Assembly (NCBI GenBank): GCA_023266875.1
Contig: JAHFOJ010000003.1
Location: 38,239-75,210 of the forward strand
DNA length: 36,972 bases
Source of the DNA: Candidatus Giovannonibacteria bacterium
Lineage (GTDB): Bacteria; Patescibacteriota; Minisyncoccia; JACPKW01; UBA11713
Reading direction: 5' to 3'
This document shows, one piece after another, positions 11,715 through 18,870 of this stretch (position 1 is its first letter; every line of letters starts with the position of its first letter). The notes under the pieces were generated by a model, which saw only the letters and a list, made by a program, of their open reading frames with translations, ran no database searches and was not told the DNA's origin. A program made the translations under genes and the position numbers.

Positions 11715-11967
11715 AATTATAAGTTTCACGTGTAACTTACTTATTAATCAACTGTTTCACAATAGTTTCACGGCTATTAATTACGGATCTATATGTTGCA
11801 CGTGAAACACATGAACCATGCCTTCTGAAAAAAGAAAACTTGGAGACATCTGTGAAACTATTGCTGTGAAACATCTCGTGAAACACACCTACACGATTAT
11901 TGGTCGTAATTATCAAAAAAAATGGGGCGAGATAGATATAATAGCCACAAGTGTTTCACGTGACACT
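11630..11967. promoter_or_regulatory. Cluster of parS-like sites (11630-11645, 11722-11737, 11794-11809, 11952-11967) plus half-sites
   Basis: TGTTGCACGTGAAACA at 11794 matches TGTTNCACGTGAAACA exactly; the three others share the CACGTG core and GTT/AAC-type arms. Confidence 0.7.
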
Positions 11968-12207
11968 AATAAATTGCACTTTATTGAAGTTAAAGGTGCA
12001 AAGGTACGGCTTGATATAAATGTTAGGCCGGAGGTAAATATGAGTGATTTTAAGAAGAAAAGGTTATGGCGGGCTATACAATCATGGTTTATCGATAATC
12101 CGACTTATAACGAAATCGATTGGCAAATTGATGTAGCGGCGGTATTATTGTTTCCTGAAAGAAAAACAGTAAGGATTAGATGGATTAGAAATATAATTAT
12201 AGAATAA
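11818..12207 (+). CDS. YraN/UPF0102-like endonuclease-fold protein
   Basis: KRKLGDICETIAVKHL...GRNYQKKWGEIDIIA...LHFIEVKGAK. Confidence 0.88.
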   Translation: MPSEKRKLGDICETIAVKHLVKHTYTIIGRNYQKKWGEIDIIATSVSRDTNKLHFIEVKGAKVRLDINVRPEVNMSDFKKKRLWRAIQSWFIDNPTYNEIDWQIDVAAVLLFPERKTVRIRWIRNIIIE

Positions 12208-12254
12208 ATCGATATTTCGGGCTGGAGTATGTTGGTAGTACACCTGCTTCTTGC

Positions 12255-12361
12255 CCAGCCGTATTTTTAACGGAGAGTAGTATAGTGGCAGTACACGTGC
12301 TTTGGGAGCACGTAGTCCGGGTTCGATTCCCGGCTCTCCGACAGAGGGAAAATACAGCTGG
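12255..12361. repeat. Inverted-repeat-bounded segment (CCAGCCGTATTTT / AAAATACAGCTGG) enclosing tRNA-Pro(TGG)
   Basis: Arms 12255-12267 and 12349-12361 pair at 12 of 13 positions; arm shared with 17227-17327. Confidence 0.75.
12271..12341 (+). tRNA. tRNA-Pro(TGG), nested
   Basis: CGGAGAG/CTCTCCG acceptor; anticodon arm CGTGC-TTTGGGA-GCACG; T arm CCGGG-TTCGATT-CCCGG; A73. Confidence 0.95.
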
Positions 12362-12404
12362 ATGAAGGAGCAGGTAGACTGGGTTCGATCCCCAGCAGCC
12401 CGAC

Positions 12405-16743: not shown

Positions 16744-17031
16744 TTATTTAACCGCGTCTTTTAACCCTTTACCTGCTTTGAATTTCGGGACTTTCATTGC
16801 TGGGACGTTTACCTTTGCGCCGGTGCGCGGGTTTCTTGCTTGGCGCGCTTTGCGCTGACGCGCAACGAAGGTGCCGAAGCCTGCTATTGAAACCTCATCG
16901 CCTTTCTTCATTGTCTCCGCGATGGTGTCGAATATAAAATCGACGACTTCCTCAGCATGCTTTTTGGATACTTCGACGCCCTTTTTGGAGTGAAGCTCCC
17001 AAACCTTTGCCGCTAGTTCTGCTTTGTTCAT
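16744..17031 (-). CDS. hup: DNA-binding protein HU
   Basis: MNKAELAAKVWELHSKKGVEVSKKHAEEVVDFIFDTI...VSIAGFGTFVARQRKARQARNPRTGAKVNVPAMKVPKFKAGKGLKDAVK. Confidence 0.95.
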   Translation of the reverse strand: MNKAELAAKVWELHSKKGVEVSKKHAEEVVDFIFDTIAETMKKGDEVSIAGFGTFVARQRKARQARNPRTGAKVNVPAMKVPKFKAGKGLKDAVK

Positions 17032-17075: not shown

Positions 17076-17144
17076 CCACGTTAGAAGCAAACTGCTCCTA
17101 GACGGCTGCCACTGCGCTTTCGGCAGGGTGGGCTTCTAACGTGG
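17076..17144 (-). promoter_or_regulatory. Structured 5' leader element of HU mRNA
   Basis: Perfect 13-bp inverted repeat CCACGTTAGAAGC/GCTTCTAACGTGG around an internal hairpin region, downstream of the TTGTAA-17-TATAAT promoter. Confidence 0.65.
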
Positions 17145-17226: not shown

Positions 17227-17327
17227 CCAGCCGTACTTTTCTGTTTTTTTACAACCTTTAGTATCTGATTCTCTATGTATTGGGGACGGAATAATCGCAA
17301 ATGATATTATAGCAAAAGTACGGCTGG
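17227..17327. repeat. 101-bp inverted-repeat-bounded element (CCAGCCGTACTTTT ... AAAAGTACGGCTGG)
   Basis: Perfect 14-bp arms 17227-17240 / 17314-17327; arm shared with 12255-12361. Confidence 0.75.
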
Positions 17328-17343: not shown

Positions 17344-18870
17344 TTAGCGGGCATAATCCACCGTTCTTGTTTCTCTAATTACGTGAACCTTGATTTCGCC
17401 AGGATATTTTAATTCTTGTTCCACGCGGTTTGCGATGTCACGGGCGAGTTTTTTCATTTCCAGATCTGAAATTTTATCCGGCGTGACGAATACGCGAATT
17501 TCACGGCCTGCCTGTATGGCATACGTTTTCTCGACTCCCGGGAATGACGCCGCGATCCGTTCAAGGTCTTCGAGCCGCTTTAAATAGTTTTCAACCGAAT
17601 CCCTTCTTGCTCCCGGGCGGGACGCTGAAATCGCATCAGCAGTTTGCACGATTATAGATTCGAGCGTTTCATATGGATACTCTTCGTGATGCGATTGCAT
17701 CGCTTGTATTACGCGCACATCTACATTAAATTTTTGAAGTATTCTTCTGCCGATCTCAACATGCGTTCCCTGGATTTCATGGTCAACCGCTTTCCCAATA
17801 TCATGGAGAAGCGCGCCCTTTCTTGCAATCGCGACATCTCCGCCGAGTTCAGATGCAAGCATCCCCGATATGTGGGACATTTCAATTGAATGCTGAAGAA
17901 CGTTTTGTCCGTACGAAGTTCTGAATTTAAGGCGTCCGAGAAGCATCAAAAGCCGCGGGTCAATGTCGAAAGCGCCGATTTCGAAAGCGGCTTTTTCGCC
18001 CGCGTCTTTAATTATCTTTTCTATTTCATTCTTAGATTTATCAACCATTTCTTCGATCCGCGCGGGCTGAATGCGTCCGTCGACTATCAGATTTTCAAGC
18101 GCCATTTTGGCTATATGGCGCCGAACCGGATCGAAACTTGAAATGATTACCGTGCCCGGGGTATCATCAACGACGACCTCAACCCCGGCGGCGCGTTCAA
18201 GAGCGCGGATGTTACGCCCTTCTTTCCCGATTATTTTTCCTTTCAAGTCTTCCGAAGGGATTGTCACGGCGGTCGTGGTTACTTCTGATGCTGTGGAAGA
18301 AGCCAGCCGCTGGATTATGGTTGCGAGCGTATCGCGCGCTCTTTGCTCGAGCCGCTCGGTCCCGAAAAGTTCGAGTTTTTGTATTCGCGCGAGAATGTCA
18401 GCCTCGTGTTTCTTTTCGATCGAGCCTATAAGGTCGTGTTTGGCCTCTTCTTCGGTTAGTCCGGCTATCTTTTGTAGCTCGACTCGTTTAGCTTCCTCAA
18501 TTTTTTCGGCCTCTTCGCGGATTTTTTTGATTTCTTCCGCTTTTTCCTTGAGCGATTCTATCTCGCGCTCAAGATCGTTTCGCCTTTTTTCCAATACATC
18601 TTCGCGCTCGAGGATTTTTTCCTCGAGCTTATGGATTTGACTTTCGCGTTCTTTGATTTCCAGCTTGGCCTCCGATAGCAGGCCTTCGGCCTTGCTTTTC
18701 GCTTCGTCTAAAGTTTTAGTCGCTTGGTTTTTAGCTTCGAGTAAGGTTTCTCTTACCCTTAGCTCAGCCGAGTTTTTTCTCGATTGCGATATTAGTTGAT
18801 GGGCGACATAGCCCAGAATTCCCCCAAACGCTAATAAGCCTATCGCAACGAATGGCAATGATATTGACAT
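17344..18870 (-). CDS. rny: Ribonuclease Y
   Basis: N-terminal TM, coiled coil, KH (IIGKEGRNIRALERAAGVEVVVDDTPGTVIISSFDPVRR), HD domain (GALLHDIGKAVDHE). Confidence 0.97.
   Translation of the reverse strand: MSISLPFVAIGLLAFGGILGYVAHQLISQSRKNSAELRVRETLLEAKNQATKTLDEAKSKAEGLLSEAKLEIKERESQIHKLEEKILEREDVLEKRRNDLEREIESLKEKAEEIKKIREEAEKIEEAKRVELQKIAGLTEEEAKHDLIGSIEKKHEADILARIQKLELFGTERLEQRARDTLATIIQRLASSTASEVTTTAVTIPSEDLKGKIIGKEGRNIRALERAAGVEVVVDDTPGTVIISSFDPVRRHIAKMALENLIVDGRIQPARIEEMVDKSKNEIEKIIKDAGEKAAFEIGAFDIDPRLLMLLGRLKFRTSYGQNVLQHSIEMSHISGMLASELGGDVAIARKGALLHDIGKAVDHEIQGTHVEIGRRILQKFNVDVRVIQAMQSHHEEYPYETLESIIVQTADAISASRPGARRDSVENYLKRLEDLERIAASFPGVEKTYAIQAGREIRVFVTPDKISDLEMKKLARDIANRVEQELKYPGEIKVHVIRETRTVDYAR

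Follow-up and report, generated by a model that had tools for sequence, protein, structure and literature searches.

The gap between the genes for RNase Y and an HU-like DNA-binding protein in a Candidatus Giovannonibacteria genome (hereafter G000; 0.68 Mb, 25 contigs, 92% complete) contains a 101-bp segment that begins and ends with inverted repeats of 14 bp, and a second segment of the same window (i.e., the 36,972-nucleotide stretch of contig JAHFOJ010000003.1 analysed here) encloses a tRNA-Pro gene between almost the same arms. What kind of unit combines fixed ends with such different contents, and how it came to occupy these places, is the question raised by this locus. The two segments and the genes beside the first are as follows:

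17227..17327, no strand assigned: hairpin element copy of 101 bp, between rny and the HU gene, missing in relatives
17227..17240, no strand assigned: left arm, CCAGCCGTACTTTT
17314..17327, no strand assigned: right arm, AAAAGTACGGCTGG, which matches the left arm as a perfect inverted repeat
17344..18870, minus strand: RNase Y gene (rny; Pfam RNase_Y_N, HD and KH), upstream neighbour of the 101-bp copy
16744..17031, minus strand: gene for an HU-like DNA-binding protein (PF00216, E=1.1e-29), downstream neighbour of the 101-bp copy
12255..12361, plus strand: hairpin element copy of 107 bp, with arms at 12255-12267 and 12349-12361 and a tRNA-Pro(TGG) as cargo

Both pairs of arms had been reported in an initial annotation made from the letters alone and were verified at these coordinates; the arms of the 107-bp copy equal the 17227 arm with one mismatch, and the interiors of the two segments, described there as unrelated, showed no relation on comparison. 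Perfect 14-mer inverted pairs with a span of 60-200 bp gave 4 seed matches in the window, whereas 300 dinucleotide shuffles gave a mean of 0.04. Counted singly and with up to 3 mismatches allowed, the 14-mer was not in excess in the window (10 observed, 8 expected), and the signal thus lies in the pairing of the arms and in the further copies found genome-wide. An intrinsic terminator was considered and rejected, as no T tail follows the stem and the segment is absent from the terminator scan; no convincing Rfam family was found within the element. The rny-HU gap also holds a second perfect palindrome, of 13 bp (CCACGTTAGAAGC / GCTTCTAACGTGG; 69 bp, window 17076-17144), which relatives do not have and of which no further copy was found among the fetched loci.

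If the segments are mobile, as the initial annotation had supposed, relatives should include unoccupied sites, and these were found for both copies. The unaligned part of the rny-HU gap measures 30-138 bp in five relatives and about 305 bp in G000, the second palindrome included, and the empty counterpart of the tRNA copy is an intact tRNA gene in the relative G006. At the latter locus, the following features are arranged one inside the other:

12271..12342, plus strand: inner tRNA-Pro(TGG), intact, the sole tRNA-Pro(TGG) found in the 92%-complete assembly
12218..12254, plus strand: 5' half of an outer, interrupted tRNA-Pro, whose orthologue is an intact tRNA-Pro(TGG) (G006:C19:42270-42340)
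12364..12403, plus strand: 3' half of the outer tRNA-Pro, assigned on the basis of the G006 orthologue
11818..12207, plus strand: UPF0102 (YraN-like) gene (PF02021, E=1.5e-15), which anchors the synteny of the tRNA locus as the same neighbour in G003 and G006

The tRNA cassette of the initial annotation thus stands as far as the arms around the tRNA-Pro(TGG) are concerned, but what had been missed is that the cassette itself lies in the anticodon loop of a second, ruined tRNA-Pro(UGG). G006 has the intact outer-type tRNA-Pro(UGG) alone, behind the UPF0102 gene, and G003 has the inner-type tRNA-Pro(UGG) alone at the same locus, so that relatives hold either version singly and G000 holds one inside the other. 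On a plain reading of these sequences, the element brought or captured the inner tRNA gene and so may have permitted the loss of the outer one; the insert would have destroyed the outer tRNA-Pro(UGG), and survival would depend on the tRNA-Pro(UGG) carried inside. The state of G003 could then follow if the outer remnant were lost, though the order may have been the reverse.

The anticodon loop is the classical place for bulge-helix-bulge introns, and conserved, stem-forming sequence lies exactly at the borders of the element, which could point to a new enzymatic kind of spliced intron in which cleavage at the border stem is followed by exon ligation, in the manner of the archaeal bulge-helix-bulge introns. 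The four single-cut splice products of the outer tRNA that have a 7-nt anticodon loop carry the anticodons CTT, CTG, CAG and AAG, none of them for proline, though the orthologue reads TGG; bulge-helix-bulge excision would accordingly not restore a functional RNA from the outer tRNA, and no group I or group II intron core was found in the element. With sites that are mostly tolerant helix tips rather than functional cores, and with some copies lying between genes where there is nothing to splice, we regard this reading as very unlikely. A separate candidate, in which the outer halves belong to a tRNA-Lys(CUU) split by an archaeal-like intron, was rejected because the syntenic orthologue is a tRNA-Pro(UGG) and a tRNA-Lys(CTT) is present elsewhere.

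The initial annotation had suggested a genome-wide search for paired arms, and this search revealed further copies in G000 and in eight other patescibacterial genomes. Six inverted pairs were found in G000 by pattern searches, which would miss diverged copies:

C9:55465-55565: the copy at 17227-17327 of the window, intergenic
C9:50493-50599: the tRNA-Pro copy
C11:19082-19180: inside an insert that interrupts 16S rRNA (Rfam)
C5:155-256: intergenic
C10:7071-7278: in 23S rRNA (Rfam)
C19:12515-12586: in RNase P RNA (Rfam)

The insert in the 16S rRNA gene of G000 is about 1.2 kb long (G000:C11:18043-19242, L105) and splits the gene between GGATTA and GATACCC, with the element copy lying within it. 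A search for the two ends as a pair in 85,488 GTDB species genomes matched 12 loci, 11 of them patescibacterial and spread over the Parcubacteria group, Moranbacteria, Taylorbacteria, Kaiserbacteria and Campbellbacteria. An arm search of the matched genomes, all of them fragmented draft metagenome assemblies, yielded additional inverted pairs, and several carriers were multi-copy; 40 element pairs were catalogued over all carrier genomes, where the counts for G435-G442 rest on a single pattern (CCAGCCGTANNTT) that misses diverged ends. Three kinds of match were set aside, namely one in Anabaena (L113), whose arms differ and are unpaired beyond position 9 and which was judged to be due to chance; a single copy in G145 that lacks the TTT part; and sparse, partnerless single arms in relatives, judged mostly due to chance. 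A viral origin was rejected after viral contigs (IMG/VR) gave no match to the element; the only phage match to the tRNA segment was a phage tRNA-Pro.

Among 389 genomes sampled evenly over the phylum, two matched, G000 and one doubtful case. The hairpin family is hence rare and sporadic in the phylum, though multi-copy in several carriers. This distribution also bears on the proposal that the segments are host hairpins with a conserved local function (e.g., a terminator, a processing site or a protein-binding site) that are kept in place, for which it can be said that several copies in G435 lie directly upstream of ribosomal protein genes. A stem with no following T tail, sites that are empty in relatives and a presence in 2 of 389 sampled genomes, G000 included, leave this proposal virtually no chance of being correct.

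Alignment of the 40 pairs gave the consensus ends YCCAGCCGTA-N-TTT / AAA-N-TACGGCTGGR. Stem positions 1-9 read CCAGCCGTA, with positions 1-5 and 7-9 invariant and position 6 either C or T, and positions 11-13 are almost always TTT. Position 10 varies among copies (GC 22, CG 8, AT 8, TA 2) and is complementary in 40/40. The covariation score was 0.282, compared to 0.095 in shuffles (reached by 0/500) and about 0.07 or less in slid controls, which supports a real covarying stem. The pair directly outside the stem (-1/+1) is complementary in 35 of the 40 copies, with 14 expected; beyond two positions, the flanks of the 40 copies showed no systematic pairing, and on the inner side the stem is extended by copy-specific sequence that tends to pair. 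Copies fall into length classes of 23-58 bp, 72-107 bp (many of 97-102 bp) and 208-324 bp, with interiors of 5 to about 300 nt. Some interiors are common to unrelated sites, such as that of a G435 copy in a group I intron and a G442 copy in 23S rRNA (88% over 49 nt), and interiors of the G437 copies are 85-92% identical. One 277-bp copy (G441 L169:1487-1763) contains another palindromic repeat in its interior, suggesting a nested insertion of unrelated elements.

Conserved ends, a uniform class of about 100 bp and the dispersed copies, those between genes in G435 and G437 included, would all fit a DNA transposon family with MITEs, in which an unseen transposase reads the terminal inverted repeats. 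If this enzyme preferred palindromic targets, as hairpin-recognising transposases do, the bias to RNA hairpins would follow. The initial annotation had left the choice between a MITE-like element and a mobile RNA-stem cassette, and had named target duplications as a check. Direct repeats of 3-9 bp flanked none of the 40 copies (2-bp repeats: 8/40, with 4.5 expected, P=0.07), so the element is not a classical MITE; the RNA-stem cassette fits better, as many copies lie in helix tips of structured RNAs. The element resembles MITEs and Correia-type repeats in being short, in its terminal inverted repeats and in its non-autonomous majority, but differs from them by the lack of target-site duplication, by ends that covary per copy and by a nuclease in place of a DDE transposase. 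The varying position 10 agrees between both ends in every copy, as would not be expected of independent terminal repeats; moreover, the sole gene found in copies encodes a GIY-YIG nuclease, and no transposase, and hence no transposase-bearing autonomous partner, was found inside any copy in these draft assemblies. We therefore consider a transposon and MITE family rather unlikely.

Seventeen of the 40 copies, and two truncated copies in addition, lie within structured RNAs identified by Rfam. Under binomial tests that assumed a generous target of 14 kb of RNA genes, this location was far from random in G436 (Moranbacteria), where it holds for 8/8 copies (P ~1e-15; 23S rRNA has four of these, RNase P RNA three and a group I intron one), and in G000, where it holds for 4/6 (P ~3e-6). 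The three RNase P copies of G436 (L167:1527-1897) share a single gene, each in a different helix. Among other carriers, copies were found in 16S rRNA (G440), 23S rRNA (G442, G438) and RNase P RNA (G438). In G435, one copy occupies a group I intron, and 16S and 23S rRNA contain two that are truncated or one-armed; most G435 copies lie between protein genes, including those just upstream of ribosomal protein genes, and intergenic copies occur in G437 too. None of the 40 catalogued copies is inside a recognised protein gene, and the element itself gave no Rfam intron match, some copies being located within group I introns. In the Parcubacteria loci L110, L112, L117 and L119, a composite intercistronic repeat consists of a hairpin starting TAATGGCTT, the element, and then GGCGATTTGTATAG...TTACAAATCAGCC(ATG), and lies directly 5' of the start codons of rplQ, rpsM and others.

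In E. coli numbering, the 23S sites are ~1704-1742 (three genomes), ~1528-1543, 539-554 and 144-176, the 16S site is 68-100 and the RNase P RNA site follows 253; CCAGCCGTA copies occupy 23S sites in four genomes and 16S 68-100 in one. We take the rRNA sites to be the tips of variable helices. At rnpB and at 23S ~1704-1742, relatives have short, mutually different native hairpins, which the element replaces. Two origins can be considered for this bias to hairpin tips: the element may target extruded hairpins, or insertion may be less biased and selection then act on its products. For 8/8 copies in about 1% of the genome, selection alone seems insufficient, because intergenic DNA should be at least equally tolerant.

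Intervening sequences (IVS) of 23S rRNA in Salmonella, Leptospira, Coxiella and others are likewise stem-loop inserts with complementary ends in 23S helix tips, which are sporadic, have probably moved horizontally, include a site at helix 25 and in some cases carry a gene (PMC4990558). The copies described here could accordingly be ordinary rRNA IVS, immobile hairpins that RNase III removes or clips and that are inherited passively or spread through recombination, with ends that serve as a signal for RNase III or a binding protein. The stem-loop architecture in peripheral rRNA helices and the sporadic distribution are alike, one of the element sites is the known helix 25 site (PMC4990558), and the main text of Tsurumaki et al. 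places short patescibacterial rRNA inserts at two sites among IVS (PMC11270868). The element is not confined to rRNA genes, however, as it also occurs between protein genes and in a tRNA, RNase P RNA and group I introns, and these copies, together with near-identical interiors at unrelated sites, call for active dispersal. A fixed 9-bp sequence is not required by RNase III. The element has one and the same end sequence over genomes and sites; its gene encodes a GIY-YIG nuclease, where that of IVS encodes S23p. An ordinary, immobile IVS is thus quite unlikely.

The initial annotation had described a family with conserved ends and variable cargo, and this description holds, since copies with the same ends may be empty, enclose a tRNA or a gene, or contain about 70 bp of unrelated sequence; what it missed is the nuclease gene of the long forms. 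The 23S copies of G436 (308 bp) and G438 (324 bp) are filled by ORFs of 87 and 90 aa, each with a complete single GIY-YIG domain of the homing type (PF01541; E=6.6e-17 and 4e-19), for which the closest solved structures are the structure-specific nuclease SLX1 and UPF0213 proteins (weak, E 0.01). At this 23S site, the 208-bp copy of G000 has the first and last parts of the GIY-YIG ORF but not its middle, and is a deleted remnant of the GIY-YIG-coding form. The 23S ~1704-1742 site therefore has a GIY-YIG gene or its remnant in three genomes; most element copies are at unrelated sites. The shorter forms have no GIY-YIG gene, and among CCAGCCGTA copies an intact nuclease was detected in G436 and G438 only, with the remnant in G000 and none detected in most short-copy genomes, whose assemblies are fragmented.

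GIY-YIG genes enclosed by stems were also found with other ends, i.e., TCCCGCACC (16S, G006), CCCAGCACCTAAC (23S, G436, with a disrupted gene) and CCCAGCACTTAT (16S, G263). The first of these (G006 L181, G006:C28:2004-2249), in a genome of the same family as G000, has its GIY-YIG gene in an 18-bp stem. We predicted that other GIY-YIG ends would also have short forms, and a search returned a 94-bp copy with CCAGCACTTA in G263, whose ends match those of the GIY-YIG copy in 16S rRNA of that genome, as well as copies of 80 and 101 bp in G338. These make up a sister family with the ends CCAGCACNTA...TANGTGCTGG, which combines long, nuclease-coding forms with short forms of about 100 bp, at the following loci:

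L240 and L243 (G263), L244 and L245 (G338), L236:6933-7225 (G436): GIY-YIG copies in 16S and 23S rRNA, and short copies of 80-101 bp

The family thus has conserved ends, a paired stem, dispersal to non-homologous places in unrelated Patescibacteria, a bias to RNA loops and a nuclease in its long forms. The explanation that we favour, with moderate confidence, is a dispersed and horizontally moving hairpin element, i.e., an IVS of the rRNA type that is probably mobilised by the GIY-YIG nuclease. Long forms would be autonomous; the nuclease would cleave DNA hairpins that are extruded, or the flanks of these, and the element would be copied in during repair, often in place of the hairpin tip. The short forms (~100 bp and 23-58 bp) would be non-autonomous derivatives moved in trans. 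In RNA, the insert would not be spliced out but would either lengthen the helix or undergo the RNase III clipping of a classical IVS, so that only tolerant helix tips retain the element. Several points weigh against this explanation: the evidence consists of sequence comparisons; most short-copy genomes lack a detected nuclease-coding CCAGCCGTA copy, in assemblies that are fragmented; the G435 copies are mostly between protein genes rather than in RNA genes; ordinary homing does not explain how a GIY-YIG nuclease places an element at new, non-homologous sites; and GIY-YIG genes are common in these genomes, so that their inclusion in a stem could be secondary.

A bolder form of this explanation, which we put forward only tentatively, is that of a new class of mobile element, a "hairpin transposon", in which a terminal stem and a structure-specific GIY-YIG nuclease of about 90 residues would suffice. 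Such an element would insert into the loops of extruded hairpins and so favour structured RNA genes, would represent the missing mobile form of the rRNA IVS, and, with a tRNA as cargo, would have supplanted an essential tRNA gene from within.

No earlier description of the hairpin family was found in the open-licence literature searched. In the same bacteria, the main text of a survey of rRNA inserts in CPR genomes (Tsurumaki et al. 2024; PMC11270868) reports many short unclassified inserts and, as a separate and unexplained group, GIY-YIG inserts, with GIY-YIG genes confined to inserts unlike both group I and group II introns; its authors argue there that GIY-YIG lies outside homing. Terminal sequences shared among inserts and a connection of GIY-YIG with the short inserts are absent from this main text, which stays within rRNA and mentions neither inverted repeats, palindromes, tRNA nor RNase P (PMC11270868). 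The shared ends identified here unite the GIY-YIG inserts and the short inserts and extend both beyond rRNA. A further likeness is to the Rickettsia palindromic elements, which are also small, palindromic, dispersed in reduced genomes and able to occupy genes. The Rickettsia elements are best known for inserting in frame into protein genes, whereas catalogued copies of the hairpin element are never within a recognised protein gene.

The origin and movement of rRNA IVS have been open since 1990 and are stated to be unclear (PMC4990558). Because the hairpin family combines fixed ends with empty sites and with both nuclease-coding long forms and short forms, the question of IVS movement becomes testable. 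Annotation tools that assume uninterrupted RNA genes will miss or mis-size genes that bear the element. For the reduced genomes of these bacteria, our findings mean that a single type of element reshapes 23S rRNA, 16S rRNA, RNase P RNA and tRNA, to the point where a tRNA gene is nested inside the very tRNA that it appears to replace.
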